Shown: positions 30,994 through 58,946 of the stretch, one piece after another
How positions within the stretch are numbered: position 1 is the stretch's first letter
Layout of the letters: every line of letters begins with the position of its first letter
From: Arcticibacter eurypsychrophilus
GTDB lineage: Bacteria > Bacteroidota > Bacteroidia > Sphingobacteriales > Sphingobacteriaceae
Length of the DNA: 64,000 nucleotides
Reading direction: 5' to 3'
NCBI RefSeq assembly: GCF_001730525.1
Contig: NZ_MDFN01000021.1
Span: 1 to 64,000, forward strand
Position numbers and translations under genes: made by a program
Notes under the pieces: generated by a model
Databases searched by the model: none
The model's input: the letters and a program-made list of their open reading frames with translations, nothing else
Told to the model about the DNA's origin: nothing

Positions 30994-32991
30994 ATGGATT
31001 CATTCTATTTAGTTTTTGGAACGATTATCCCGTCTTTGATAAGCCTGATTGCCATTCCATTATTACCCGAGAAAAACAAATCAACAGGAGCGTTTATCCT
31101 GGTTTTTTTAATAGCACTGATTTCTTCCATACCCGCCATACAGGTATTGTGCTTTCATCGCATTGTTGAAGCGGAACTTTTTTTTAATTATCCGATAGGG
31201 ACTGTAGTCATGCGGATTGATCCTCTTTCTGCCTGGTTTATGCTGATAATCAATCTAACTTGTCTTTTCGGGTCGTTTTATGGGATCGGTTATATGAGTA
31301 GCTACAAGGGTCAAAAAAACAATCTAACGCTTCATTGGATCATGTACGTGATTTTGCACACGGCTTTACTTTGGGTTTGTATGGTTCAAAATGGCCTGGC
31401 CTTTTTAGTGGTTTGGGAAATAATGTCTATTTCCTGCCTGCTATTAGTCATTTTTGAACATCAAAAGTCGGAAACGCTTAGGGCTGGCTTGATCTATCTG
31501 GTACAAATGCATATGGGGGTTGCCCTGATGTCTGTTGGATTTATATGGGTTTATATCGCAGAAGGCTCATTTGACTTTGCTGCAATAGGTGCTTATTTTA
31601 GTCATAACAGCCCTATTTGGTTATTTCTGATTTTCTTTGTTGGCTTTGGCTTTAAAGCAGGATTTTTACCCCTGCATACCTGGCTGCCTCATGCGCATCC
31701 TGCCTCTCCTTCCCATGTTTCGGGTACCATGTCTGGAGTAATTGTGAAAATGGGTATTTACGGCATACTCAGGATAATCACTTATCTTGATTCCGAATGG
31801 TTGCGAATAGGCATAGCTATTCTGATTCTCTCCCTGCTTACCTCTTTTTATGGAATCTTAAATGCTGCAGTACATCGTGATTATAAGAAAATGCTTGCTT
31901 TTTGCACTATTGAAAATATAGGAATCATTGGGATGGGCATTGGACTGGGATTAATAGGTAAAGGCACTGGCAATGATTATTTATTTTATCTTGGCTTCAG
32001 TGCTGCATTATTGCATACCTTAAACCATTCGCTCTACAAAGCTCTTTTGTTTTTTACTGCAGGAAATATCTATCAGCAAACGCATACCCGCAATATGGAA
32101 CATTTGGGTGGCTTAATAAAAGTAATGCCGGTAACTGCCATCGCATTTTTATGTGGTTCCTTAGCGATTGGAGGATTGCCTCCTTTTAATGGTTTCGTCT
32201 CCGAATTTCTTATTTATACCGGTTTACTGGATGGGTTGAAATCTCAGAACGTGGAATTGAATGTACTGATGATTTTAAGCATTGCCGTTCTAGCTATTGT
32301 GGGTGGCGTTTCTATGCTGACTTTTACAAAATCTTTTGGAACTATTTTTCTGGGATCTCCAAGGATGAAATTTGAACATCCTCCTAAGGAGGTGTCTGTT
32401 ATTATGCAAATCCCACTTTGGATTATGATCGGAATTATGCTGCTGATTGGAATTTTCCCCAATTATATATTAACGGTTATCCAGCCGGTCGTACAGGTTT
32501 TTAATCCAGCATATCTTCCTTCTCCTGCCCTGGCTGTGTTAGATCCTACCTTAACGATGGTTGGCCGGATATCTTTCTTGTTGATTGCCATGGTTGCCTT
32601 GCTGTATTTTATTCGTTCACGCCGGACAAAAGCCAGTGAAGCTACGTATGGACCTACCTGGGGTTGTGCCTATATCGTACCTAACCCGCGCATGCAATAC
32701 ACCGGAAAGTCATTTACAAAAACACTTGCAAAAATGTTTTCTGTTTTTACAGCTGAAAAAAAGGAATATAGAGAACTGCAGGATACGGATGTTTTTCCTA
32801 CTGAAACGCGCTATATATCGCATTATAATGAGTTTTTTGAGACGCGTATTATTGATCCGTTGGATAAACGTCTGCTTCGATTGATGAATTATTTCTCTTT
32901 TATCCATAATGGAAGAACCCAGATGTATATACTGTATGGACTCCTGTTTATCCTGGTATTCATTGCAGCCACGTTTTTGAATTTAATATAG
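30994..32991 (+). CDS. HyfB/NuoL-like proton-translocating subunit
   Basis: Antiporter-like membrane subunit of 665 residues with about 16 transmembrane helices, related to HyfB/HycC and NuoL/M. The ion-path residues are kept: Glu142 in VVWEIMSISCLL, Lys221 in GFGFKAGFLPLHTWLP, the HAHPASPSHVSGTMSG loop, and Lys252 in GVIVKMGIYG. A further Lys is in NHSLYKALLFF. The C-terminal part contains a soluble loop (GPTWGCAYIVPNPRMQY) typical of HyfB-like proteins. It is the first gene of a six-gene operon. It probably moves H+ or Na+ in response to the hydrophilic arm encoded by the last two genes. Confidence 0.92.
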   Translation: MDSFYLVFGTIIPSLISLIAIPLLPEKNKSTGAFILVFLIALISSIPAIQVLCFHRIVEAELFFNYPIGTVVMRIDPLSAWFMLIINLTCLFGSFYGIGYMSSYKGQKNNLTLHWIMYVILHTALLWVCMVQNGLAFLVVWEIMSISCLLLVIFEHQKSETLRAGLIYLVQMHMGVALMSVGFIWVYIAEGSFDFAAIGAYFSHNSPIWLFLIFFVGFGFKAGFLPLHTWLPHAHPASPSHVSGTMSGVIVKMGIYGILRIITYLDSEWLRIGIAILILSLLTSFYGILNAAVHRDYKKMLAFCTIENIGIIGMGIGLGLIGKGTGNDYLFYLGFSAALLHTLNHSLYKALLFFTAGNIYQQTHTRNMEHLGGLIKVMPVTAIAFLCGSLAIGGLPPFNGFVSEFLIYTGLLDGLKSQNVELNVLMILSIAVLAIVGGVSMLTFTKSFGTIFLGSPRMKFEHPPKEVSVIMQIPLWIMIGIMLLIGIFPNYILTVIQPVVQVFNPAYLPSPALAVLDPTLTMVGRISFLLIAMVALLYFIRSRRTKASEATYGPTWGCAYIVPNPRMQYTGKSFTKTLAKMFSVFTAEKKEYRELQDTDVFPTETRYISHYNEFFETRIIDPLDKRLLRLMNYFSFIHNGRTQMYILYGLLFILVFIAATFLNLI

Positions 32992-33001
32992 TTTTACAGG
33001 T

Positions 33002-33922
33002 ATGACCATGGGAATACTTATTTTTTTATTAATTTTAATGGTAAGCTGCTTTTTTGGCGGGATTGTCATCCGTACCAAAAGTGTTTTTGCCGGTCGTAAA
33101 GGTCCAGGCATCTTTCAACCACTTAAGGATGAATGGCGATTATTTCGTAAAGGTTCTATTTATAGTAATACCAGCAGTTTCATCTTTCAAATTGCCCCAA
33201 CGATTTATTTTGTTTCCATACTTTTAGCGATAACGATGATCCCTCTAGGTAATCATGCGGGACTTATTTCTTTTAAAGGAGATTTTGTCTTTTTTGCTTA
33301 TCTGCTGACGATTGGAAAATTCTTTAATATTATATCTGCTTTAGATACTGGAAATAGTTTAGAAGGTATGGGCGCCAGTAGGGAAGCTTTGTATTCCATG
33401 TTAGCTGAACCTGCATTCTTTATCCTGATGGCTTCATTTGCCTTGTTGACCGGCCATACTTCCTTTCAGGGGATTTTCGGCTCCTTGCATTTCTATACCT
33501 ACATTTCTTATGCCGTGGGTTTCCTTGCAGCGTTTGTCTTTGTGATCATTGCATTAATTGAAAATAGCCGTATGCCGGTTGATGACCCTAAAACTCATCT
33601 GGAACTGACAATGGTACATGAGGTGATGATTCTGGATAACAGTGGTTTTGATTTAGGACTTCTGCTGCATGCTTCTAATTTGAAGTTTGCCATGTATGGC
33701 GCCATCATCTCAAACTTTTTTCTAACTCCAGGATCAGAGTTATACTACACCATTCCCATTTTTATATTAACTCAGGTTTTATTTGCGGTACTTGTTGGTT
33801 TTATTGAATCGTTTATGGCTAGGTTTAGAATGAACCATAATCCTCAATATATTTTTACACTTACCTCAGTTACCTTACTTATTTTTCTGGGAGTAATGCT
33901 CATGCTTGGGAGAATTGTTTAA
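33002..33922 (+). CDS. HyfC/NuoH-like membrane subunit
   Basis: 306-residue membrane protein of the NuoH/HycD family, which joins the membrane arm to the hydrophilic arm. The family motif GRKGPGIFQPLKDEWRLFRKG is near residue 30. The acidic interface loop reads ALIENSRMPVDDPKTHLELTMVHEVMILD near 180-215, with its Glu and Asp residues kept. About eight helices are predicted by eye. It starts 10 bases after the HyfB-like gene. The conserved loop argues that a NuoB/NuoD-type module still docks here even though that module has lost its usual cofactors. Confidence 0.92.
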   Translation: MTMGILIFLLILMVSCFFGGIVIRTKSVFAGRKGPGIFQPLKDEWRLFRKGSIYSNTSSFIFQIAPTIYFVSILLAITMIPLGNHAGLISFKGDFVFFAYLLTIGKFFNIISALDTGNSLEGMGASREALYSMLAEPAFFILMASFALLTGHTSFQGIFGSLHFYTYISYAVGFLAAFVFVIIALIENSRMPVDDPKTHLELTMVHEVMILDNSGFDLGLLLHASNLKFAMYGAIISNFFLTPGSELYYTIPIFILTQVLFAVLVGFIESFMARFRMNHNPQYIFTLTSVTLLIFLGVMLMLGRIV

Positions 33923-33935
33923 AGAATAGAAGAAA

Positions 33936-34565
33936 ATGACTAATATTATTTTAATCGCATTTATCATTACCTTGGTTCAACTGGGCTTGTCAAAGAGATT
34001 GAGTACCTACATCCGGGTATTAAGTATTCAGGGCATTCTTTTATTTGGTGTCGCCTTTATTGAACTGATTGAAATCAATGTTATTAACCTGTTATTTGTA
34101 TTGCTTGAAACCGTTGTGTTTAAAACCCTCATGATCCCTTATTTTTTAAGTTACATCATTAAAAAAAATAAGATTACGCACGAGGCTGAGCCTTTTCTGC
34201 CCGACTTTATGTCGGTCGTCATTATCACGAGCATCATTATCGGATCATTTCTTTTAGCAAATACCATAGGCGATCCGCATGTTAGGAAGATCTTCTTCGT
34301 CACTGCTCTATCTGCATTGTTTACCGGGTTGTACTTCATTATCTCCCGTAAAAAGATTATTACCCATGTAATGGGTTTTCTTATCATTGAAAATGGGGTA
34401 TTTGTTTTATCCCTGGCTGTTGGTGCTGAAATGCCATTCCTGGTGAACATTGGAATATTGCTCGATATTTTTGTGAGTGTGCTATTGTTAGGGGTTTTCG
34501 TAAATAAAATTGGTGACATGATTGGAGAGCAGGATGTGGACCAGTTAAGTAGTTTAAAAGATTAA
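33936..34565 (+). CDS. HyfE-like membrane subunit
   Basis: 209-residue integral membrane protein with six or seven hydrophobic helices and short loops, matching HyfE, the hydrogenase-4 subunit whose C-terminal half is related to NuoK. The segment VMGFLIIENGVFVLSLAVGAEMPFLVNIGILLDIFVSVLLLGV keeps a buried Glu in IENG and a second in GAEMP, the pair that forms part of the proton path in NuoK. It lies 13 bases after the HyfC-like gene and 7 before the HyfF-like gene. Confidence 0.88.
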   Translation: MTNIILIAFIITLVQLGLSKRLSTYIRVLSIQGILLFGVAFIELIEINVINLLFVLLETVVFKTLMIPYFLSYIIKKNKITHEAEPFLPDFMSVVIITSIIIGSFLLANTIGDPHVRKIFFVTALSALFTGLYFIISRKKIITHVMGFLIIENGVFVLSLAVGAEMPFLVNIGILLDIFVSVLLLGVFVNKIGDMIGEQDVDQLSSLKD

Positions 34566-34572
34566 AGGGACA

Positions 34573-36000
34573 ATGATTGGAATCTATCTTATTGGTGCAG
34601 TATTCATTAGTTTGGCTTTGTTCTTTAACAAAAATAAGACGCTTCATTATTCCTTGGTTAGTTTGTATTTTCTTTTACAATGCACATTAACCATTTATGA
34701 ATATGTTCATCTGAATGCGGTACAACTGGAGTACTTTACGCCGGATGCGTTGGGAATCATCTTCCTGGTTACGTTAAGTTTGATCTGCGGACCTGCTTTA
34801 TGGCATAGTTATGTCTATTTTGAAACCGGAAAAGATATCCCCCGCGAGCGGAGTATTTACTTTGCAGCCATGGTTCTTTTGCTTACTGCATTAAGTGCCG
34901 CCTATTTGTCTAATCATATTGCCATTACCTGGATTTTTGTTGAACTTACTACATTAAGCTCTTCCGCGCTGATCTATCACCGAAGAAACCTGCATACCAT
35001 AGAGGGGACATGGAAATATTTATTTGTTTGTACTATCAGTATTACGTTGGTTTTTATTGGAATCCTTTTCCTTACACTAGCTATTCAGCAAGATGGAATT
35101 AAAGATTTGAATTATAAGGTGTTATTAAGTCAGGCTCCAACCCTTAATGTTTTTTGGCTTAAGTTATCTTTCCTTTTCGTCTTTACCGGATTTACATCAA
35201 AAGCAAGTCTGGTGCCTATGTATACCGCAGGAATCGATGCAAAAGATAAGGCACCTTCACCTGCTGGCGCATTGTTTAGTAGTGTACTCATGAATATGGG
35301 ATTTGTAGGAATCTTTCGTTTATATGAAATTATCAGTCACACTTCTATTTTACCCTGGACCAACCAAATTCTCCTCATTTCAGGGGTATTATCTGTTTTT
35401 GTAGCAACTGTTTACATGTTGAAGGTGAAGAATTTTAAACGGATGTTTGCTTATTCCAGCGTAGAGCATATGGGGCTGATTATGTTGGGACTGGCTGCTG
35501 GTGGCATCGGTTATTATGCAGCGATTCTACATCTGATATTACACTCCTTTACCAAATCTGCTATGTTTTTCCAAATAGGTCAGGTCTACCGGATTTATAA
35601 AAGTAAAAGCGTTTACGATGCCGGTGACTACTTTAGATACAATCCTACGGGATCTATGATCTTGTTATTAGGCTTTTTTGTGGTCACAGCCATGCCGCCT
35701 TCAGGGATGTTTGTAAGCGAATTTCTAATCTTTACTGCTCTGTTTCAGGCGAACCATTTTTGGTTACTGGCTATTATATTGTTACTGCTTACCATGATTA
35801 TCTGGTCGCTGGGAAAAACTATTTTCAGGATGATTTTCATTAAACCTATTGGATTTAATGATACTGATGTTAAAAAAATCCCAGCAATAGAATCACTAAG
35901 TCAACTTGTTTTTCTTGGGTTTGTCATTTATATTGGGGTTAATACTCCTACTGTATTGATCAATCTTATTCATGTGGCTATTCAGAATTTACCAAAATAA
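34573..36000 (+). CDS. HyfF/NuoN-like antiporter subunit
   Basis: 475-residue antiporter-like subunit with about 13-14 helices, related to HyfF and NuoM/N. Glu124 in WIFVELTTLSSSALIYH and Lys210 in GFTSKASLVPMYTAGIDAKDKAPSPAGAL are the usual ion-path residues. In SSVLMNMGFVGIFRLYE the next helix lacks a lysine, as HyfF-type proteins often do. His and Lys residues in HSFTKSAMFFQIGQ fit the distal channel. Its stop is followed after a single base by the start of the large-subunit gene, so translation is tightly linked. Confidence 0.91.
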   Translation: MIGIYLIGAVFISLALFFNKNKTLHYSLVSLYFLLQCTLTIYEYVHLNAVQLEYFTPDALGIIFLVTLSLICGPALWHSYVYFETGKDIPRERSIYFAAMVLLLTALSAAYLSNHIAITWIFVELTTLSSSALIYHRRNLHTIEGTWKYLFVCTISITLVFIGILFLTLAIQQDGIKDLNYKVLLSQAPTLNVFWLKLSFLFVFTGFTSKASLVPMYTAGIDAKDKAPSPAGALFSSVLMNMGFVGIFRLYEIISHTSILPWTNQILLISGVLSVFVATVYMLKVKNFKRMFAYSSVEHMGLIMLGLAAGGIGYYAAILHLILHSFTKSAMFFQIGQVYRIYKSKSVYDAGDYFRYNPTGSMILLLGFFVVTAMPPSGMFVSEFLIFTALFQANHFWLLAIILLLLTMIIWSLGKTIFRMIFIKPIGFNDTDVKKIPAIESLSQLVFLGFVIYIGVNTPTVLINLIHVAIQNLPK

Positions 36001-36001
36001 C

Positions 36002-37507
36002 ATGGAAAATTTTATCACTTTAAAAAACAATCAAACCATTCCCCTGCAGGATATTCCAGTATTGGCATACCCTGAATTTCTGGAATTAAATATTTCATTT
36101 GTTAAGGAAGACGCTAATCATTGTGTGAATTATTATGGATTTCCTGTATTAGACACGATTAAATTAATATGCTGCATTGCTGATGATGTAAAACAAAAGA
36201 TTTATGTATCCTCTTCGGTAATTAAAAAAGATAGACAGGAACCAATAACATCTTTTACTGCACGAAAACTTTGTTTTCATCTATTTGAACGTGAGCTTCA
36301 TGAAAATTTTGCAATCCCCTATTACGATCATCCCTGGTTAAAACCTGTCAGATACCCTATTGACCGGCCTAATCAAGAAAATACAATAGCCAATTATCCC
36401 TTTTACCAAATCCATAGTGAAGAATTGCACGAAGTCGGTGTGGGGCCAATACATGCTGGGATCATTGAACCGGGACACTTTCGTTTTATTTGCAATGGAG
36501 AGCAGATTCTTCATCTTGAAATTCAGCTTGGGTATCAGCATCGTGGTATTGAAAACCTTTTTATAAGCAGTAAAAAAATACTGCAGCGTAATATATTAGC
36601 TGAATCGATAGCTGGTGATAATGTGGTTGGACATACCACTGCTTTTGTACAGCTCTGGGAAAGTCTTATTGGCTTTCGTCCCGATAATAAGTTGGTTTAT
36701 GAAAGAACACTGGCCTTGGAACTGGAACGTTTAGCGATGCATACAGGCGATCTAAGCGCTGTTTGTACCGATATCGCTTATCAGTTAGGCGGTGCTGTTT
36801 TTGGTCGCTTACGTACCCCTATTATTAACTTCATGCAGCATTGGTGTGGAAATCGTTTATCTAAAGGTTTAATTCGTGTTGGAGAAAGTAATTTTCCCTT
36901 TACGATGGCCCTGGCGAATGAATTAACACAGGTTTTAGATGCTTATGAACCTGATTTTATGGAGATGTATAAAGAAATGAAAAGTCTTCCTACTGTGCTT
37001 GCACGTTTAGAAAAAACCGGTGTAATTACTCAAAAACAAGCGCATAGAGTTGGATTGGTAGGTATGGCTGCAAGGGCTTCCGGACTCTCTCGTGATTTGC
37101 GTAGCTCTCATCCCTTTGGTTTATATCCGGGAGTATTGCACGAGCCGGTAATTAAGAACCATGGCGATGTATCATCCCGCATTCAAATCCGTAAAGAAGA
37201 AATTATACAATCTATTATATATATTCGGGAGTGGTTGAAAAACATTCCTGAACAAGAAAAGCAACCCACGGTATTGCCAATGCCTACAGCAAATACCTTT
37301 ACTATTTCATTGGTTGAAGGCTGGCGTGGTGAAATCTGTCATTGTGCTGTTACGGATCTTAATGGTGACATTTTGCATTATAAGATTAAAGACCCCTCAT
37401 TTCATAACTGGCTTGCGATAGCGTTATCCGTAAGGAATAATGAAATCTCTGATTTTCCGATTTGTAATAAAAGCTTTAATTTAAGTTACAGCGGACATGA
37501 TTTATAA
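36002..37507 (+). CDS. Hydrogenase large-subunit-like protein without NiFe ligands
   Basis: 501-residue NuoC-NuoD/HyfG-like fusion. Residues 1-120 form the NuoC-like part ending in LFERELHENFAIPYYDHPWLKPVRYP-type sequence; the rest is the NuoD-like domain (IQLGYQHRGIENL near 175). In [NiFe] enzymes the first motif is CGxC; here ESIAGDNVVGH has Ala204 and Asn207 instead. The second motif DPCxxC reads DPSFHN, with Ser466 and Asn469. All four metal-binding cysteines are therefore gone, and the protein cannot hold a normal [NiFe] site. It may be a structural or quinone-site homolog, as NuoD is. The ATG at 36002 was chosen; the frame extends further into the previous gene. Confidence 0.9.
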   Translation: MENFITLKNNQTIPLQDIPVLAYPEFLELNISFVKEDANHCVNYYGFPVLDTIKLICCIADDVKQKIYVSSSVIKKDRQEPITSFTARKLCFHLFERELHENFAIPYYDHPWLKPVRYPIDRPNQENTIANYPFYQIHSEELHEVGVGPIHAGIIEPGHFRFICNGEQILHLEIQLGYQHRGIENLFISSKKILQRNILAESIAGDNVVGHTTAFVQLWESLIGFRPDNKLVYERTLALELERLAMHTGDLSAVCTDIAYQLGGAVFGRLRTPIINFMQHWCGNRLSKGLIRVGESNFPFTMALANELTQVLDAYEPDFMEMYKEMKSLPTVLARLEKTGVITQKQAHRVGLVGMAARASGLSRDLRSSHPFGLYPGVLHEPVIKNHGDVSSRIQIRKEEIIQSIIYIREWLKNIPEQEKQPTVLPMPTANTFTISLVEGWRGEICHCAVTDLNGDILHYKIKDPSFHNWLAIALSVRNNEISDFPICNKSFNLSYSGHDL

Positions 37508-37543
37508 TATGATGCAGCGGAATCAAATTTAATTGAACTGATT

Positions 37544-38293
37544 ATGATTGATCATTTAAAAATATTACTCCATCAGGGTAAACAATATATTCCGGATGTA
37601 ACCAAGGCGATCATCTCGGATACATTTCGTGGGCGTCCGGTCATTTCTAATCTGCAGGTCGATGAGCAGCAATTGATAGATCTGTGTCCTACGGGAGCTA
37701 TTAGCAATATGCCATTCAGTATAGATTTAGGAAAATGTATTTTTTGTGGGCAGTGCGCATTTGCCTGTCCCGAGAAAATCAAGTTCAGTAATGATTATAA
37801 AATGGCTACTAATGATCGGAATGGGCTTATCATAAAAGAAGGTGAAGATCAACCCATACTAATTCATGCGGATTTAATCCGTAAGGAAATTTCTACTTAT
37901 TTTAAAGGGTCCTTAAAATTAAGGCAGGTATGTGCAGGGGGCGATAATAGTTGCGAACTGGAGTTAAATGCAGCATCAAATGTGAATTTTGATATGAGTC
38001 GCTTTGGTATTGAGTTTGTAGCATCACCCAGACATGCGGATGGAATTGTGATTACTGGTCCGGTAACTAAAAATATGGCTGCTTCTCTTAAGCTATGTTA
38101 TGAGGCAATACCTGAGCCTAAAATTATTATTTTGGCCGGAACGGATGCAATAAGCGGTGGTATGTTTACTTATAGTGACGCTATTAACCGAAGTTTTTTA
38201 GACCTCTATCCTATTGATTTATACATTCCCGGTAATCCGGTTCATCCGCTTTCCTTTATCAATGGCTTGTTAGAACTCATCAGAAAACGATAG
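37544..38293 (+). CDS. Ferredoxin-NuoB-like fusion with degenerate N2 site
   Basis: 249 residues. The N-terminal part carries a ferredoxin-like motif, CIFCGQCAFACP (Cys65, 68, 71, 75), plus Cys48 in LCPTGAIS. By the usual pairing, Cys65/68/71 with Cys48 would bind one [4Fe-4S] cluster, and the second cluster is lost. The C-terminal part (about 120-245) is NuoB/HycG-like: RQVCAGGDNSCELELNA, then ADGIVITGPVTKNMA, LCYEAIPEPKIIILAGT and YIPGNPVHP. Expected cysteines are replaced by Asp134, Asp201 and Asn231; only Cys137 remains, with an extra Cys130. It lies 36 bases after the large-subunit gene and ends the operon, convergent with tenA. Confidence 0.9.
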   Translation: MIDHLKILLHQGKQYIPDVTKAIISDTFRGRPVISNLQVDEQQLIDLCPTGAISNMPFSIDLGKCIFCGQCAFACPEKIKFSNDYKMATNDRNGLIIKEGEDQPILIHADLIRKEISTYFKGSLKLRQVCAGGDNSCELELNAASNVNFDMSRFGIEFVASPRHADGIVITGPVTKNMAASLKLCYEAIPEPKIIILAGTDAISGGMFTYSDAINRSFLDLYPIDLYIPGNPVHPLSFINGLLELIRKR

Positions 38294-38308: not shown

Positions 38309-38959
38309 TTATTTCCATTTTTCTAGTAAATATGCACTATCCCAAAAGTTATATTCCAACTTGCAGGCGGTCAAAAAAACTTCAGTCATAGTTTCTTGTT
38401 GCTCAACAGTACTGCTCGCCGCTGCTGTATCACAAATTAAAATTGCCTTTTCAACCAGTAAACCGAATTCATCGCCTGCATAGGTATCAATCCAGTTTTG
38501 GTATTGGTTGTCGTTTTTGGTTTGATTTGAAAGGATATAATCACCTATTTTTTTATACACCCAAAAGCAAGGCAGTACAGCAGCAATCCCTACCGAAGAC
38601 TGCGACATATAAACGGTACTCTGCAAAAAGTGTACATAATGATGGCAGGTAGGCGACATACTAATCTGCCCCTTTACCTCATATTGTTTAAAGTAGGAAT
38701 CATGCAAAGATCTTTCCACCGCAATAGCTCCTTCAGCAAAGCGAATAAAATCAAGCATGGTGTTTACATCCTCTGCTTTTGCGGCAATTATGGATAAGGC
38801 TCTTGCAAAGTACTCCAGGTAACGGGAATCCTGTTCAATATAAAATTTAAACTTTTTAGGATCCAGTGTACCGTTCTGTAGCTCTTCAATAAAAGGCATA
38901 GCGATGATTTTTTCATATATAGGGTTTGCCCTTTCCCAGGCTTTTTCAGACCAGTTCAT
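38309..38959 (-). CDS. tenA: Thiaminase II / aminopyrimidine aminohydrolase
   Basis: 216-residue all-helical TenA. It hydrolyses aminomethyl-pyrimidine breakdown products to HMP for thiamine salvage, in the cytoplasm. Family features are FKFYIEQDSRYLEYFARAL near residue 37, the active-site Cys region in ILICDTAAASS near 170, and a conserved Tyr and Glu near the C-terminus (KLEYNFWDSAYLLEKW). The Cys of ETMTEVFLTACKLEYNFW is near 200. It is the last gene of the thiamine salvage operon, and its start overlaps the thiD end by 14 bases. Confidence 0.92.
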   Translation of the reverse strand: MNWSEKAWERANPIYEKIIAMPFIEELQNGTLDPKKFKFYIEQDSRYLEYFARALSIIAAKAEDVNTMLDFIRFAEGAIAVERSLHDSYFKQYEVKGQISMSPTCHHYVHFLQSTVYMSQSSVGIAAVLPCFWVYKKIGDYILSNQTKNDNQYQNWIDTYAGDEFGLLVEKAILICDTAAASSTVEQQETMTEVFLTACKLEYNFWDSAYLLEKWK

Positions 38960-39782
38960 GTAGTGTTAGTTTATATGGATTATAAAAATGGTTTAATGGG
39001 CCATGTCCCTTGCCTGTAATTACGTCCTTACCGTGCAAAATGGCGTTATGTACATAATCCTGAGCCAGCGTAATGGCATCCGTTAGCGCAATGCCTTCAG
39101 CCAAATAGCAAGCGATGGCTGATGATAGTGTACATCCAGAACCATGTGTGTTATTAGAATCTATTTTATCCGACATGTAAACTCCTATCTCGACATTAGG
39201 TCTGAATAACATGGAACTAAGCTGAGCTGATTGCAGGTGTCCGCCTTTCAATAACAAGGCATTACACCCCATTCTCATAATTTCAGAACCGGCCTCATAC
39301 ATCTGTTCAAGGGTTTCAATGCGTAAAGCAGTTAGTAAGGAGGCTTCGTCCAGATTTGGGGTAATCAAAGTAGCAAGAGGAAATAGCTTTTTAATGATCG
39401 ACTGAATGGTATCTTCTTCAATTAGCCTGTCGCCACTGCTGGCTACCATAACAGGGTCAAATACGACAGGGATTCCAGGGTATTGTTGTAAGATCTCCGC
39501 AATTACATCTACGAGTGCTGTCGTATGTACCATACCTATTTTTATGGCATCCGGTAATATATCTTCCATGACGGCTTGTATTTGAGATTGCACAAATGCA
39601 GGAGGAATAGCATGGATTGCCCTGACACCACAGGTGTTTTGTGCGGTTAAGGCGGTTAGAGCCGACATGCCATAGCAGCCTAAAGCGGAAAAGGTTTTTA
39701 GATCAGCCTGAATGCCTGCACCTCCCCCGCTATCCGAACCTGCAATGGTTAATACGGTGGTGTATTTATACTTTTTAGTCAT
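38946..39782 (-). CDS. thiD: HMP / HMP-phosphate kinase
   Basis: 278-residue ribokinase-family enzyme that phosphorylates HMP twice to HMP-PP. It shows VLTIAGSDSGGGAGIQADLKTFSALGCYG at the start, GMVHTTALVDVI, VFDPVMVASSGDRLI, and the anion hole with catalytic Asp replaced in the usual ThiD manner by Cys within NTHGSGCTLSSAIA near residue 215. Its start overlaps the thiE stop by 4 bases (ATGA). In the operon it supplies the pyrimidine half for ThiE. Confidence 0.95.
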   Translation of the reverse strand: MTKKYKYTTVLTIAGSDSGGGAGIQADLKTFSALGCYGMSALTALTAQNTCGVRAIHAIPPAFVQSQIQAVMEDILPDAIKIGMVHTTALVDVIAEILQQYPGIPVVFDPVMVASSGDRLIEEDTIQSIIKKLFPLATLITPNLDEASLLTALRIETLEQMYEAGSEIMRMGCNALLLKGGHLQSAQLSSMLFRPNVEIGVYMSDKIDSNNTHGSGCTLSSAIACYLAEGIALTDAITLAQDYVHNAILHGKDVITGKGHGPLNHFYNPYKLTLHELV

Positions 39783-40414
39783 ATTGCTTTTTCAATTTGA
39801 TTTCTTATTTCTGCTGCGGCTTGCTCCGGATTTTCTGCTCCGCAAATGGCTGATACTACCGCAAGGCAATCTGCACCTGCACGCATCACATCATAAGCAT
39901 TTTTTGCATGTATATTTCCAATAGCAACCAAAGGTTTGTTAGTAAGGCTTCTGATCTTCGAGATGCCATGCAGTCCCCATGCTGTCACAGTATCAGTCTT
40001 AGTTTGGGTATTGAACACAGGGCTGATGCCCAAGTAATCTGTATATTGGATTTGCGAATTGAACAATTGTTCCTCATACTCGATCGAGTACCCCAATAGG
40101 AAACCATCGTGCCATTGCTTTTTTATTTCAGCAGGCAGCATATCTGAATTTCCAACATGGATACCGGAAGCACAGCAGGAAAGTGCAACAGCCAAATTGT
40201 CATTAACAATCAAAGGAACCCCATACTGATCGAGCATTTCTTTTAAACGCGAGGTGACGGATTGAAATGCAGCAAAGTCCTTGTGTTTTTCCCTAATCTG
40301 AACTAAATCAACCCCACCTTTAACAGCCATTTCAGTTACTGATACCAAATCTCTTCCCCTGCATGCATCCTCAGACACAACCAGGTACAATCGGCTTGAA
40401 AAACGATCAATCAT
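39779..40414 (-). CDS. thiE: Thiamine-phosphate synthase
   Basis: 211-residue TIM-barrel enzyme that joins HMP-PP and thiazole phosphate. Motifs are GGVDLVQIREKH near residue 35, VPLIVNDNLAVALSCCASGIHVGNSDM near 75, YLGISPVFNTQTKTDT near 125, and KPLVAIGNIHAKNAYDVMRAGADCLAVVSAI near 165. The ATG at 40414 is used because the longer frame begins with a TTG. It overlaps the thiM stop by 8 bases and the thiD start by 4, so the operon is tightly coupled. Confidence 0.95.
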   Translation of the reverse strand: MIDRFSSRLYLVVSEDACRGRDLVSVTEMAVKGGVDLVQIREKHKDFAAFQSVTSRLKEMLDQYGVPLIVNDNLAVALSCCASGIHVGNSDMLPAEIKKQWHDGFLLGYSIEYEEQLFNSQIQYTDYLGISPVFNTQTKTDTVTAWGLHGISKIRSLTNKPLVAIGNIHAKNAYDVMRAGADCLAVVSAICGAENPEQAAAEIRNQIEKAI

Positions 40415-41213
40415 TTTGAACTTCAATTTTGAGGTAGTTATGAAACTCCTGCTCTGTTATGTTGTATAATTTATCCAATAAGTTCATCTGTAAGCTACCG
40501 GGACCATTGGAGTTTTTCTGTGCAATTTCTCCTGCAATACTCAGTAAACACATGGCCGAAGCTGTGGCATGAAAAGGATCGCTGGGATCATTGCCTATGA
40601 AAGCAGCAATTAGCGCAGTGGCTGTGCAGCCTAATCCTGTCACCTGTTGCATCATAGGATGCCCGTTTTGTATGAATACTTTTTGTTTTCCTGAAATGAT
40701 TACATCAACAGCCCCTGATACGCAGATAATACTACCCGTGCTGCTATTCAGCCACTGTGCCGCTTCAATTGCTTCCTCACTTTGATAGACACTATCAACA
40801 CCTTTTGTCTGAAGCCGACTGACTTTGGCAATGGCCATAATTTCTGAGGCATTGCCTCTTATCACAGTTGGTTTATAGTTGATGAGACTGGTTACAGTTT
40901 GGTCTCTTAATAGCGTTGCACCGGCACCTACAGGGTCAAGGATCCATGGTTTATGAAGTTCAATTGCTTTTTTAGCAGCAAGATCCATGCTCTTGCACCA
41001 ATATTCATCCAGTGTTCCGATGTTAATAACCACTGCATTTGAAATAGTCACCATCTCCTCTATCTCAGGATGCGCATGTGCCATGATTGGAGAGGCACCA
41101 ATAGCAAGCAAAGCGTTAGCGGTATTGTTCATCACCACATAATTGGTGATATTATGTACTAAAGGAGCATTTTTTCTGACACATAGGATGGATTCCCAAA
41201 GCGATTTTTCCAT
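40407..41213 (-). CDS. thiM: Hydroxyethylthiazole kinase
   Basis: 268-residue ribokinase-like enzyme that phosphorylates the thiazole alcohol for salvage. It begins with the family sequence APLVHNITNYVVMNNTANALLAIGASPIMAH, followed by NIGTLDEYW, WILDPVGAGATLLR, IRGNASEI, and the catalytic QQVTGLGCTATALIAAF near residue 190. It is the first gene after the TPP riboswitch, so the operon is turned off by thiamine pyrophosphate. No thiC, thiG or thiH is in the window, consistent with a salvage-only unit here. Confidence 0.95.
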   Translation of the reverse strand: MEKSLWESILCVRKNAPLVHNITNYVVMNNTANALLAIGASPIMAHAHPEIEEMVTISNAVVINIGTLDEYWCKSMDLAAKKAIELHKPWILDPVGAGATLLRDQTVTSLINYKPTVIRGNASEIMAIAKVSRLQTKGVDSVYQSEEAIEAAQWLNSSTGSIICVSGAVDVIISGKQKVFIQNGHPMMQQVTGLGCTATALIAAFIGNDPSDPFHATASAMCLLSIAGEIAQKNSNGPGSLQMNLLDKLYNITEQEFHNYLKIEVQND

Positions 41214-53573: not shown

Positions 53574-54326
53574 TTACCCAAATCTTCCTGTTATATAGTT
53601 TTGTGTTGCATTCTTTGCCGGATTAGTGAAGATCTTATCTGTATTATCATACTCTATTAGTTCACCCAGGTAAAAGAAAGCAGTTTTATCACTGATACGG
53701 GCGGCTTGTTGCATGTTATGGGTCACAATCACGATCGTAAACTTACTTTTCAGCTCATATATCAATTCTTCAATTTTAGCTGTTGAAATAGGATCCAGAG
53801 CAGAAGCTGGCTCATCCATTAATAAAACAGATGGTTGTACTGCAATAGCACGGGCAATACAGAGTCTTTGTTGCTGACCACCAGATAAAGCCATGGCAGA
53901 TTTTTGAAGATTGTCTTTCACTTCATCCCATAAAGCCGCTTGTTTCAATGCATATTCAACCGTTTCTTCTAACACAGATTTAGATTTCTCTCCATTGATC
54001 CTTAATCCAAATGCAACATTTTCAAATATAGATTTAGGAAAAGGATTTGGTTTCTGAAATACCATTCCAATCTGTTTCCGGTAAGCATATACATCAATGA
54101 TATTTTTGTAGATATCTATATCATCAATCATCACTTCACCCTTTATGGTTACATCAGGAATAAGATCATTCATCCTGTTGAAACAACGTAGAAAGGTCGA
54201 TTTGCCACAACCGGATGGACCAATAAAAGCGGTTACTGTATTCGCTGTAATATTTATAGTAACATCTTTTAATGCCTGTTTTTTACCATAATACAAATTA
54301 AGGTCTTTCGCCTTTAATTTATACAT
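53574..54326 (-). CDS. pstB: Phosphate ABC transporter ATPase
   Basis: About 250-residue ATPase that powers PstAC. It begins [21 protein letters not shown] at ATG 54326; an earlier ATG at 54368 overlaps pstA and is less likely. Walker A is GPSGCGKST, the family FNRMNDLIP follows, Q-loop [14 protein letters not shown], signature [14 protein letters not shown], Walker [14 protein letters not shown], and switch His in [13 protein letters not shown]. These are characteristic of PstB. Confidence 0.95.
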
Positions 54327-54343
54327 TCCGTACTGTAGCTTTG

Positions 54344-55204
54344 CTAAGCTGTCGTTTTTCTGTACCATCTATTTCTTAATACTACGGCTATGCCGTTTAA
54401 TAAAAATGTAAATACAAGTAATACAATAATACCTGCAGCTGCGTTATCAATAAAACCCTGTTGTGGCCGGGATGTCCAGTTAAATATTTGTATAGGCAAT
54501 GAAGTGTACTGATCCATAGGCCCTTCAGGAATAAATGGAACATACGCTAAAGCTCCAACCACAATTAAGGGAGCCGTTTCGCCAATTGCTCGCGAAATAG
54601 ATAAAATTACTCCCGTTAAGATTCCCCCAAAAGAGGCTGGCAATACCACTCTCCATATCGTTTGCAATTTAGTAGCCCCCAATCCGAATGCCGCTTCCCT
54701 CATCGTGTCAGGCACTGCTTTAATAGCTTCCCTTGTTGATACGATGATTACTGGCATAATCAATAAAGCTAAGGTCAATGCTCCTGACAAGATGCTGTTT
54801 CCAAAGCCGGCCATCCGCACAAATAACTCTAATCCAAGGATTCCATAAATAACAGAAGGTACTCCTGCTAAATTTGAGATGTTAATTTCAATGAATTTAG
54901 CCAGTCTATTCCGATTGCCATACTCCTGCAGATAAATCCCTGATAGTATGCCTATAGGCAATGCAATAATTAAGGTAATAAATAATAGACTAACCATACC
55001 CGCCAATGCGGTATAGATTCCTGACTGCTCAGGATGCCTGGATGGAAGATTAACAAAAAATGACCAGTTTATTCTGGAAAGACCTTTTATAAGGATATCA
55101 ATGATCAAGATTAAAAGAGTTAGTAGTGCCATACCGGTACAGGTAATGGCAAAGACCTTAAAGACTTTATCTTTCACATTGGCTGAAATTAGTTCTTTAT
55201 TCAT
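54344..55204 (-). CDS. pstA: Phosphate ABC transporter permease PstA
   Basis: 286-residue permease with six transmembrane helices. The EAA loop is [30 protein letters not shown] near residue 190, followed by [15 protein letters not shown], which is typical of PstA. It overlaps pstC by 8 bases at its start. With PstC it forms the channel that takes phosphate from PstS. Confidence 0.94.
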
Positions 55205-56084
55205 AACGTTGCTCGTATTTTTTTCTTATCCAAAAACTGATGTTATTGAGCAAAAAGGTAAACATAAAAAGTGTGATACCTGCTGCAAAAATTGTCCTGT
55301 ATTCCATTGAATCCTGGGGTACATCTCCCATACTGACCTGTACAATATAAGTTGTAATCGTTTCTACCGATTCTAAGGGGTTAAATGTAAGTTTAGGCTC
55401 TTGTCCCGCTGCTATAGCTACAATCATGGTCTCCCCCAATGCTCTGGAAATAGCCAGTATTACCGAAACAATAATTCCGGAGTTGGCAGCAGGAACGAGT
55501 ACACTGAACGCAGTTTGAAAACGGTTTGCACCCAACCCGTATGAGGCCTCTCTTAACGATTTGGGAACTGCCCGCAATGCATCTTCACTTAAGGAAGTAA
55601 TATAAGGGATGATCATCACGCCCATAACAATACCGGGCGACAAAGCATTAAATCCGGATAGACCTGGAATGAACTTTTGAAGCAAAGGGGTTACAAATTG
55701 CAGGGCAAAAAAACCATATATTACAGTAGGGATAGCGGCAAGGATTTCTAAAAGTGGCTTAACGACATAAGTGAACTTTTTCGAAGCATATTCATTCAAG
55801 TAAACGGCAATCGTAATACCCACCGGAACAGCGATAATGACAGCAATTGTCGTGGTTAGCAGAGTACCTGAAAGCAAGGATAAAATACCAAAATGCTTGT
55901 CTTCAAAAAGGGGTGTCCATTGTGTATCGGTAAGAAAGTCGAACAAAGATACCTCCTGAAAGAATTTAAAGGTGTCAATGGATAACACCAGAATGATACC
56001 TAAGGTCGTGATTACGGAAACCAGGCTGCATAACAGCATGACAAGTTCTATTACTTTTTCCGACTTGATTTTTATGCCCGACAT
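55197..56084 (-). CDS. pstC: Phosphate ABC transporter permease PstC
   Basis: 295-residue permease. The start MSGIKIKSEKVIELVMLL at 56084 is 1 base after the pstS stop; a longer frame from TTG at 56144 runs into pstS and is rejected. Six transmembrane helices are visible; the EAA loop is REASYGLGANRFQTAFSVLVPAANSGI, and SRALGETMIVAIAAGQ matches the PstC signature. The hydrophilic segment SLFDFLTDTQWTPLFEDKHFG near residue 45 is the expected periplasmic loop. Confidence 0.94.
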   Translation of the reverse strand: MSGIKIKSEKVIELVMLLCSLVSVITTLGIILVLSIDTFKFFQEVSLFDFLTDTQWTPLFEDKHFGILSLLSGTLLTTTIAVIIAVPVGITIAVYLNEYASKKFTYVVKPLLEILAAIPTVIYGFFALQFVTPLLQKFIPGLSGFNALSPGIVMGVMIIPYITSLSEDALRAVPKSLREASYGLGANRFQTAFSVLVPAANSGIIVSVILAISRALGETMIVAIAAGQEPKLTFNPLESVETITTYIVQVSMGDVPQDSMEYRTIFAAGITLFMFTFLLNNISFWIRKKYEQRYE

Positions 56085-56085
56085 T

Positions 56086-57075
56086 TTATTTTTTATCTGA
56101 TAATAGTTTAAACAGGTTAACGCCAACAGTAGACTTGTTTTCAAACATAGAGCCTGTCGTATGATTCAAGAACCTTTTAAAGGATAGTTGATACACTTCA
56201 GGAGGTAAGGGAACAGAGCCAATTTCTGTAGCTAAGGGAGCTGCATGCGCTAAATAAAATTTAATAAAATCTTTTACAAAAGGTTTAGAAGCGGACTTCA
56301 CATTGACATATATAAATTCAGGCCGGGATAAGGGCTGATAAGTCCCATCTTGAACTGTTTCTTCGCTCGGAAAGATGGCTTTAGCCTCTGGTGTCAATTT
56401 AACCGGCACCAATTTTAGCTTCTTTTTGTTTTCCATATAATAGGCAAGGCCAAAATAACCCATTCCATTCACATCAGACGATACACCCTGTACCAGGACA
56501 TTATCATCTTCACTGGCTGTATAATCTCCTCTCGATGCCTTTGCTTTACCATTTATAGCTTCAGTGAAATAATCATAAGTTCCGGAAGAAGTTCCAGCAC
56601 CATATAACTTCAGCGGTTTATCAGGCCATGAAGCCCGCACCTGTTTCCATGTATTGATTTTACCCTGGCTTTCCGGAGACCACATTGTTTTCAATTCAGC
56701 TACCGTAAAATAATCAACAAAGGTGTTTTTCGGACTTACCACGATAGCCATGCCATCGTAAGAAACAGGTATTTCTATAAATTCAATGCCATTTGTTCTG
56801 CTTATTTCTAATTCGCTTTTACTGATGGGACGAGAGGCATTGCTGATATCCGTTTCACCTCTTAAGAACTTTTTAAATCCTCCACCAGTTCCTGAAATTC
56901 CCACGGTAACCCTAATGTCTGGATCAACTTTTCTAAACTCCTCTGCTACAGCCTCAGTTAATGGATAAACAGTACTTGATCCATCAATATTAATTTTCCC
57001 TTTATATTCTTTAAAACATGAACACAAAAAGAGTGTACCTATTAATAAACAATATTCAAATCTAAACTTGTTCAT
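56086..57075 (-). CDS. pstS: Phosphate-binding lipoprotein PstS
   Basis: 329-residue substrate-binding protein. The start [20 protein letters not shown] at 57075 gives a lipobox with Cys about residue 19; upstream in-frame starts were rejected. Phosphate-binding motifs are [18 protein letters not shown] near residue 30, [25 protein letters not shown] near 62, and [16 protein letters not shown] near 155. It captures periplasmic phosphate. It is first in pstSCAB-phoU. A perfect TAnnTTTG element lies at 57119-57126. Confidence 0.95.
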
Positions 57076-57118
57076 CATTATTATAAGTTTTTCTTGAAGC
57101 AGATGCCCTAGCTGTGTG

Positions 57119-57126
57119 CAAATGTA
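57119..57126 (-). promoter_or_regulatory. Promoter -7 element of pst operon
   Basis: TACATTTG on the minus strand matches TAnnTTTG; the start would be near 57114, with a leader of about 40 bases. No good -33 TTTG was found at the usual spacing, which fits an activated promoter. No Pho box could be identified. Confidence 0.5.
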
Positions 57127-57305
57127 CTTAGAATACATGGAAGGTAGATGCCGAAACAGGTATACAACGCCCATACCATTTTAAATTGAACAGTTAATTA
57201 AAAAAACTTCATTATAATCCGCTTAATATCAGCTGAAGCAAAACACTAAGGATAATAAATTAACCTAAATTTAACATAAACTTCATATTGAGAATAGGTT
57301 CCAAT

Positions 57306-58391
57306 TTATGCTACTGCTTGTTTTCCAAACTTTTTAAGCATAAACAAATGTGAGCGGAGCGCAGAAATAAAGGTTTTGCTTTCAATATAAGGTAGATTGA
57401 ATTCTTTTGCGGTCTGTTTAACGATAGCGGAAATAGGTCCATAATGAATATGGCATACTTTAGGGAATAGATGATGTTCAATCTGCCGGTTCAATCCACC
57501 CAAAAAGAAAGCAGCTACTTTACTATTTGTGGCAAAATTAGCAGTCGTGCGCATCTGATGTTCAGCCCAGGCTTCTTCCATATTGCCGCTAGCATCCGGA
57601 ACAGGGAATAAAGTACCCTCAACCACATGTGCCAGCTGGAAAACCAATCCCATAGTTAAGCCCTCAGCAAGATGAAGTGCTAAAAAGCCAATAACAAATT
57701 GCCACCAGGTCACATCCAGCACAATCAGTGGCAAGATGATAAACATGAAATAATAGGCAGCCTTATAAAAGAAAAGGTTGAAATATTCTATTTTAGGATG
57801 AGTCATTACGTGTTCCCCTATTTTCCCCTGGAAGAACTTCTTATAGTCCTTTCTGAACACCCATGATATGGAAGCCAGGCTGTATAAAGGAAGTGCATAA
57901 TAATGCTGAAACCGTTGGATGCTGTTCACTTCTTCTTCCTCGGAAATACGTATAAGTCCGGGTGCTACCTCTATATCCTCATCGTGTCCCGGTATATTGG
58001 TGTACGTGTGATGCACAATATTATGGGTAATACTCCATACATATGGGTTGGCACCTACAAAATTAAACATAAAGCTAAAAACTTTATTTACCGTTTTATT
58101 GCCTGAAAATGATCCATGGATAGCATCATGGCAGATATTGAATCCTACAAAAGCACAACAAACTCCTAAAAGCACACAAAGTAGAAGCATGACCAGCGGA
58201 CTGAAAATATTTAAGATAATTAGCAAATAGAGTGTGATGTAACCAGTAAGAAAAACAAACGTTTTAAACCACATGGCACTATTTCCATTTCGGCTGATTT
58301 TGTTTTCTTTGAAATAGCTATCAACCCTTTTGCGTACAGTAGAAAGAAATGGAGATTTTGAGTTACTGGAGAACTTTAATTTTTGATTCAT
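57306..58391 (-). CDS. Front-end-type fatty acid desaturase
   Basis: 361-residue membrane di-iron desaturase. The three histidine boxes are HDAIH (88-92), HNIVHH (123-128) and QIEHH (303-307). The Gln in the third box is typical of acyl-lipid front-end (delta-5/6-like) or linoleoyl-CoA desaturases. About four transmembrane helices frame the boxes. No cytochrome b5 domain is present, so electrons would come from a separate donor. The natural product is probably a membrane fatty acid adjusted for fluidity; the exact bond position cannot be inferred. The region upstream holds no other gene. Confidence 0.9.
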   Translation of the reverse strand: MNQKLKFSSNSKSPFLSTVRKRVDSYFKENKISRNGNSAMWFKTFVFLTGYITLYLLIILNIFSPLVMLLLCVLLGVCCAFVGFNICHDAIHGSFSGNKTVNKVFSFMFNFVGANPYVWSITHNIVHHTYTNIPGHDEDIEVAPGLIRISEEEEVNSIQRFQHYYALPLYSLASISWVFRKDYKKFFQGKIGEHVMTHPKIEYFNLFFYKAAYYFMFIILPLIVLDVTWWQFVIGFLALHLAEGLTMGLVFQLAHVVEGTLFPVPDASGNMEEAWAEHQMRTTANFATNSKVAAFFLGGLNRQIEHHLFPKVCHIHYGPISAIVKQTAKEFNLPYIESKTFISALRSHLFMLKKFGKQAVA

Positions 58392-58730
58392 TCGATTTTT
58401 AATGTTTGCTAAATTTTGCTAACAAACCAGATGTTTCAAAAAAAATCAGGTGTCTGCCTTAAATAGATGGAGCGAATATACGTATTGCTTTATACGTACC
58501 AGTTGAGTTAAAATGAATAGCATCTATAATTAGGCTATTTTGAAATTATTAACGCTAAGCCTTTTTAATTATTATGACAAAAATGTAAATTATTTATTAA
58601 ACAAATGCGAATTGTTGTGTAATTAAAATTAAATATAAACACATCTATGTCTGTTGCTTAACATGCCTATACCAGTTAGGAGTCAAGTAGGATAGCTGAT
58701 CGAGCATTGCAGCTTCTTTCATGCTTTAGT

Positions 58731-58807
58731 GTTGCTTGGTTGCTCGTCTAAAGTCGAACGACCAAGCGTGCACCAAGCTTGCATCAACGAGCAAGCAGCG
58801 AAGCAAC
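58731..58807. repeat. Imperfect inverted repeat with short direct repeats
   Basis: Arms gttgcttggttgctcgt (58731-58747) and acgagcaagcagcgaagcaac (58787-58807) pair imperfectly, with an 8-bp perfect core (ttgctcgt/acgagcaa). The loop holds two 11-base near-identical units, accaagcgtgc and accaagcttgc (58761-58782). Function unknown. Confidence 0.5.
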
Positions 58808-58872
58808 AGTCCAGCCATTATACAGCATTCTCCTAAATAGGTCGTTCCTGGTATTTAAATTATAGCAAAAAA

Positions 58873-58908
58873 AATCCCCCTTACCACTATTATGCTGTAA
58901 GGGGGATT
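58873..58908 (-). terminator. Terminator of DUF4914 gene
   Basis: Perfect 12-bp stem aatcccccttac / gtaagggggatt with a 12-base loop, followed on the minus strand by a run of eight T. Confidence 0.88.
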
Positions 58909-58946
58909 AAATTATCTCTATATGGAAACCCATATTTAGCTATTAA

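Follow-up and report, generated by a model that had tools for sequence, protein, structure and literature searches.

Organization of the operon

The stretch of 64,000 nucleotides considered here (hereafter the window; contig NZ_MDFN01000021.1, positions 1 to 64,000) comes from the 4.69 Mb genome of Arcticibacter eurypsychrophilus, a member of the Bacteroidota, and carries an operon of six open reading frames (ORFs), all on the plus strand (positions 30994-38293), for a membrane complex of the energy-converting hydrogenase-related (Ehr) type. The ORF coordinates matched exactly the six-gene layout, with successive gaps of 10, 13, 7, 1 and 36 bases, of an initial annotation made from the sequence alone. 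Pfam and NCBIfam profiles identified the products as HyfB-like, NuoH/HyfC-like, HyfE-like and HyfF-like membrane subunits, a 49-kDa/NuoD-like subunit (EhrL) and a protein combining Fer4 and NuoB-like domains (EhrS), in agreement with the four membrane and two soluble subunits originally proposed; the HyfB, HyfE and HyfF profiles were among the top-scoring for the membrane subunits. A promoter scan gave no signal above the shuffled background. The complex belongs to a selectively maintained and apparently undescribed sub-clade of Ehr complexes lacking the iron-sulfur cluster N2.

Metal sites of the soluble arm

EhrL (P0005, 501 amino acids, positions 36002-37507) was recognized by profiles, alignment and structural match as a large subunit with an HycE-N-like N-terminal domain and a NuoD/HycE-like domain. 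It aligned with Escherichia coli HycE (1.2e-33) and Pyrococcus furiosus Mbh alpha (1.5e-29), with Ala204, Asn207, Ser495 and Gly498 occupying the positions of the four [NiFe] cysteines. Neither of the two CxxC motifs of group 4 [NiFe] hydrogenase large subunits (Hyc, Hyf, Ech and Mbh) is present, and the earlier statement that the [NiFe] ligands are missing was correct. The cavity motifs GPxHAGxIxPGHFRF (beta1-beta2 loop region), ESIAGDxxxGH and the C-terminal NKSFxLSYxGHDL were the same, small variations aside, across the 56 Ehr large subunits compared, both N2-less and N2-bearing.

EhrS (P0006, 249 amino acids, positions 37544-38293), recognized on the same three lines of evidence, consists of a ferredoxin domain fused with a NuoB/HycG-like domain. 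Alignment with MbhJ and NuoB placed Asp134 (37943-37945), Cys137 (37952-37954), Asp201 (38144-38146) and Asn231 (38234-38236) at N2 ligand positions 1 to 4, three of the four cysteines being lost and only that at position 2 retained. The EhrS-MbhJ alignment was gap-free around these positions, as were those with N2-bearing Ehr proteins, which align with EhrS at about 50-58% identity. No cysteine had moved nearby in register, and the claim that the small subunit lacks most of N2 was borne out. EhrS has neither the four-cysteine N2 of complex I, for which the genome's own NuoB/NuoD rows (L002 and L003) served as comparison, nor the four-cysteine proximal [4Fe-4S] site of group 4 [NiFe] hydrogenases. 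The three-cysteine catalytic proximal cluster of the membrane-bound sulfane sulfur reductase (MBS) is also missing, as Asp201 and Asn231 stand at the positions of MbsJ C93 and C123. The losses initially described as affecting both catalytic metal sites are therefore real, but the wording was loose: N2 is an electron-transfer cluster, save in MBS, in which the proximal cluster is catalytic (PMC7684303).

Two features went beyond the initial annotation: the loss of N2 is common to a whole clade, and the first cysteine motif of the EhrS ferredoxin domain (N6a-type) has been lost as well. The remaining cysteines of this domain (Cys48, Cys65, Cys68 and Cys71; 37685-37756) presumably bind, by the ligand pattern of NuoI, an N6b-type [4Fe-4S] cluster, the neighbour of N2. 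As judged from these alignments, the soluble arm appears to retain a single cluster, with the neighbouring clusters on both its sides gone.

The genes for EhrL and EhrS lie in one reading frame, separated by a single TAA, and the two proteins were for this reason modelled as one chain, from an alignment that included the natural read-through sequences of relatives. The fused model formed one packed body, with a mean predicted local distance difference test (pLDDT) score of 88.3 and a predicted template modelling (pTM) score of 0.91. The best structural match of EhrL was HycE (Z score 42.1, 2.7 A, 479 residues), and EhrS, modelled alone (pLDDT 92.6), matched HycG with its NuoB domain (Z score 14.8, 2.0 A, 137 residues). 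On the basis of these matches, the fold surrounding the lost cluster is predicted to be kept, in models computed without cofactors and hence silent on any bound species.

Conservation and phylogeny of the N2-less clade

Two short peptide patterns, the only queries used, picked out 47 related loci in 84,980 species genomes. The N2-less set, drawn from these loci, the window and the Bacteroidota loci of the phylum-level sample described below, comprised 45 small-subunit rows from 44 genomes (L004 and L047 lie on one contig), mostly Bacteroidota. The comparison set of 19 N2-bearing rows (18 Ehr, mostly from Bacteroidota, and one true [NiFe] hydrogenase, L020) was sorted by the presence of cysteine at ligand position 1, and all 19 also carried cysteine at the other three positions. 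Among the 45 N2-less rows, position 1 was invariably Asp, position 3 was Asp in 44 and Glu in one, and position 4 was Asn in 42, Ser in two and Asp in one. Glu138 and all four N6b ligands were invariant (45/45). Position 2 was occupied by Cys in 31 rows, Asn in five, Thr, Ala and Gln in two each, and Val, Ser and Gly in one each, such that 14 of the 45 rows have no cysteine at all at the former N2 site. Two divergent members, L061 and L062, carry PGSL instead of PGNP as well as Gln at position 2, with Glu at position 3 in L062; their positions 1, 3 and 4 are still exclusively acidic or polar.

In a sample of the window's class, 395 genomes drawn regardless of N2 and partly overlapping those of the pattern scan, EhrS was found in 16, with Asp/Asp/Asn in 15 and N2 in one (L091). 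At the level of the phylum, Ehr was present in 17 of 395 sampled genomes, two of which were N2-less, and within the window's own family the N2-less form occurred in three of 201 genomes. Of the named relatives, Arcticibacter svalbardensis (L021), from the same genus, is the closest at this locus, its EhrS being 92% identical to that of the window.

A tree of 58 large-subunit sequences, built without published Ehr references such as GSU0739-45, separated the rows lacking [NiFe] ligands from NuoD and from the one true [NiFe] row (support 100/99), in line with the resemblance to Ehr noted at the outset. The N2-less rows grouped together (92/94), with a long-branched N2-bearing row, L005, nested among them. 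Multiple origins of the N2 loss were considered on account of this nesting and set aside, because constraining the N2-less rows to a single clade was not rejected by the approximately unbiased test (p-AU 0.208). A single origin is the simplest reading, without being proven. Some Ehr relatives (L006-L008 and L067) lack the N6a-type motif and retain N2, and the existence of such forms makes a stepwise route, with N6a lost first and N2 thereafter, plausible.

The Ehr class and its loss of [NiFe] were already known, whereas the N2-less form with fixed Asp/Asp/Asn is apparently new: the literature searched contained no description of an N2-less Ehr member, although the original Ehr papers (Coppi 2005; Marreiros 2013) lay outside the search and may contain prior notice of it.

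Membrane arm and selection

The membrane arm comprises, by profile identification, a HyfB-like antiporter-type subunit (P0001, 665 amino acids, 30994-32991), a HyfC/HycD/NuoH-like membrane anchor (P0002, 306 amino acids, 33002-33922), a HyfE-like subunit (P0003, 209 amino acids, 33936-34565) and a HyfF-like antiporter-type subunit (P0004, 475 amino acids, 34573-36000). E142, K221, H228, H235, K252, H341, H345 and K349 are conserved in the HyfB-like subunit. Residues E128, E136, E187, D194, D195, E201 and E207 of the HyfC-like subunit are invariant in the clade, as are E58, K63, E152 and D177 of the HyfE-like subunit and E124, K210, R249, K289, E298 and K328 of the HyfF-like subunit. Conservation of charged residues in the antiporter-type subunits and in the HyfC E-channel was 85-100%, mostly 100%, in a comparison in which all but one of the membrane subunits had only three N2-bearing rows. 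The impression of an intact membrane arm was thus justified at the level of its channel residues.

The large antiporter-type subunit has been duplicated within the N2-less clade. Tandem hyfB1-hyfB2 genes were found in 12 loci (L024, L028, L030, L031, L034, L037-L040, L042, L043 and L053), where the operon thus has seven genes, three of them for antiporter-type subunits. In the window and its sister locus L026, B1 alone is retained. Between hyfB and hyfC in L026 (4207-4461, plus strand) lies an 84-amino-acid fragment that clusters with HyfB-type subunits; by this clustering, it is apparently a remnant of B2, which the window has lost completely.

Pairwise ratios of nonsynonymous to synonymous substitution rates (dN/dS) for the large and small subunits ranged from 0.04 to 0.17, the pair of window and A. 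svalbardensis giving 0.10-0.11. The complex is under purifying selection: its [NiFe], N2 and N6a sites have been lost, and the N6b ligands, EhrL cavity motifs, arm-coupling loops and channel residues have been kept.

Genomic context

The operon is preceded by genes for a DinB-like protein and a metallo-beta-lactamase-fold protein and is followed, tail to tail on the minus strand (38309-41213), by a compact thiamine salvage/synthesis cluster, tenA-thiD-thiE-thiM. None of these flanking genes recurs in distant relatives. A link to the thiamine genes was rejected, as the gene order is shared only with the same-genus neighbour. A dedicated redox partner was sought by clustering of flanking ORFs and by comparing 76 proteins encoded beside the operon in relatives with Pfam; there was no recurrent family, with at most three of the 76 sharing any Pfam family. 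At the gene level, the complex is self-contained, and these scans agreed with the initial observation that no hydrogenase or dedicated partner gene lies nearby. No [NiFe] large subunit (PF00374) was found anywhere in the A. eurypsychrophilus genome.

In A. svalbardensis, a gene for an NhaA-type Na+/H+ antiporter (L021, 1769-2989, minus strand), not present there in the window, lies between the operon and tenA, a single case that is compatible with an ion-homeostasis context. A K+ transporter adjoins the operon in one other locus, likewise a single case.

The host genome contains two further complex I loci with NuoB/NuoD (C6, about 96274-99574, and C55, about 53656-59095), at one of which NuoF was present and at the other not found. 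The Ehr-type complex therefore need not be the host's respiratory entry point.

Possible modes of action

The initial annotation proposed an ion pump driven by something other than H2. That the complex works, and is driven by something other than H2, is the reading favoured by the conserved replacements, by purifying selection and by the intact channel residues. Simple wiring through ferredoxin is less likely, since the remaining cluster has lost its neighbours on either side. A conformational or ligand signal is possible, and so is direct reduction of some species at the vacated N2 position.

Our first choice, a tentative one that we hold somewhat short of even odds, is a proton-translocating membrane arm gated by the binding of a ligand or metal at the converted Asp/Asp/Asn site, a scheme in which the remaining cluster would be a sensor or a structural element. 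The soluble arm would have abandoned its role as an electron wire, and the former N2 site would have become a polar Asp/Asp/Asn pocket with the invariant Glu138, binding a ligand, a proton or a divalent metal. A site rebuilt for binding rather than for a cluster is suggested by the free drift of ligand 2, since no cysteine need remain there. Occupancy of the pocket, probably read in combination with the redox state of the single [4Fe-4S] cluster, would shift the conserved three-loop junction, and this shift would control the passage of protons along the HyfB/HyfF/HyfC arm. The complex may thus serve as a gated proton-translocating or proton-exchange device for pH or proton-motive-force homeostasis beside an ordinary complex I. 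Three points weigh against such gating. The lone [4Fe-4S] cluster is so strictly conserved that it may, after all, carry electrons; ligand-only gating is, as far as we know, without precedent in the superfamily; and the ORFs and profiles of the operon include none of the MrpB, C, E, F and G-type subunits of an Mrp-type Na+ module, such that Mrp-like Na+/H+ exchange is not indicated.

A less likely alternative is a shortened oxidoreductase, in which ferredoxin or another low-potential donor would reduce the N6b-type cluster, which would in turn reduce either a substrate or a mononuclear metal bound by Asp134, Asp201, Asn231 and Glu138, with pumping as in the membrane-bound hydrogenase (MBH) or MBS. 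The invariance of the N6b ligands and the channels, intact by residue conservation, are consistent with this scheme. The N2 position should sit within tunnelling range of the adjacent cluster, given relay distances of <14 A in formate hydrogenlyase (FHL; PMC9474812), and MBS, without an intact [NiFe] site, performs its chemistry at the proximal position (PMC7684303). However, the neighbourhood of the operon has no recurrent gene for a donor or an acceptor, and without N6a the cluster that usually comes before N6b is missing; for these two reasons, gating is slightly favoured over a shortened oxidoreductase. A cysteine-free proximal site is, moreover, not known to us from any enzyme of the superfamily.

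It is improbable that an N2-like cluster still assembles with Asp, Asn and other unusual ligands, in an otherwise ordinary Ehr. Other proteins are known in which one Asp serves as a ligand of a [4Fe-4S] cluster, and Cys137 is kept in 31 of the 45 rows, but the 14 cysteine-free rows speak against such a cluster. We consider it very unlikely that the complex is dispensable and on its way to loss, with the replacements reflecting neutral decay. The patchy distribution, with three N2-less genomes in 201 of the family, might be read in this way, and the Ehr of Geobacter sulfurreducens was termed nonfunctional in a 2026 paper (PMC13194489). However, decay is contradicted by the specificity of Asp/Asp/Asn, low dN/dS, intact operons in many lineages and invariant channel residues, and the selection data do not support the label "nonfunctional" for the N2-less clade. 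An annotation or alignment artefact, with the cysteines shifted but intact, can be dismissed almost entirely in view of the gap-free alignments to MbhJ and N2-bearing Ehr and of the alignment to NuoB.

How redox chemistry drives distant proton pumping in the membrane is a long-standing question for complex I-type machines. Selection has here removed [NiFe], N2 and one further cluster, yet kept the coupling loops and channel residues, which argues against viewing Ehr as dead hydrogenases. Whatever the complexes do, comparison of N2-less with N2-bearing Ehr separates residues for electron transfer from those for coupling, and nature may have provided, in N2-less Ehr, an experiment on whether a pump of this type requires an electron wire. 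In the boldest form of the gating reading, which we regard as rather doubtful, this would be a widespread machine of the superfamily devoid of electron transfer in its soluble arm, in which an Asp/Asp/Asn (plus Glu138) ligand or metal switch gates or drives proton translocation, providing long-range coupling without redox chemistry.

Relationship to known systems

The operon complex shares with complex I (Nuo) homologues of NuoB, NuoD, NuoH, NuoL/M/N and NuoK and a central charged axis. It differs in that the operon encodes no NADH module and EhrS lacks N2 and N6a, and the quinone-site Tyr loop of NuoD reads ESIAGD in EhrL, as in all Ehr. Like P. furiosus MBS, it lacks a complete [NiFe] site in its large subunit and has the three-loop junction of the superfamily, and the duplicated antiporter subunit MbsH/MbsH' is paralleled by HyfB1/HyfB2 in much of the N2-less clade. 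However, the three cysteines of the MBS catalytic proximal cluster (PMC7684303) correspond in EhrS to Asp201, Asn231 and the optional Cys137, and MBS has the Mrp Na+ module that the operon complex lacks. E. coli formate hydrogenlyase and hydrogenase-4 (Hyc, Hyf) provide, in HycE and HycG, the best structural matches of EhrL and of the NuoB domain of EhrS; by comparison with them, the operon complex lacks the [NiFe] site, the proximal cluster G1, HycB and formate dehydrogenase, and its HycF-like domain has one cluster rather than two.

The closest system is Ehr itself (energy-converting/Ech hydrogenase-related, ehrABCDLS), known from G. sulfurreducens, Methylacidiphilum, comammox Nitrospira and the Mycobacterium tuberculosis hyc genes, with the same kinds of subunit and the same loss of the [NiFe] cysteines. 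Ehr has been described as lacking [NiFe]-binding residues and of unknown function (PMC6349859, PMC10284858, PMC6728331, PMC7304191, PMC7894505, PMC6688271), with proposed roles in formate-linked redox chemistry (PMC6349859, PMC7894505) or pH homeostasis (PMC6688271). The other Ehr examined (18 rows, mostly from Bacteroidota) have all four N2 cysteines, whereas the N2-less clade has lost three of them, fixed Asp/Asp/Asn in their place and dispensed with N6a as well.

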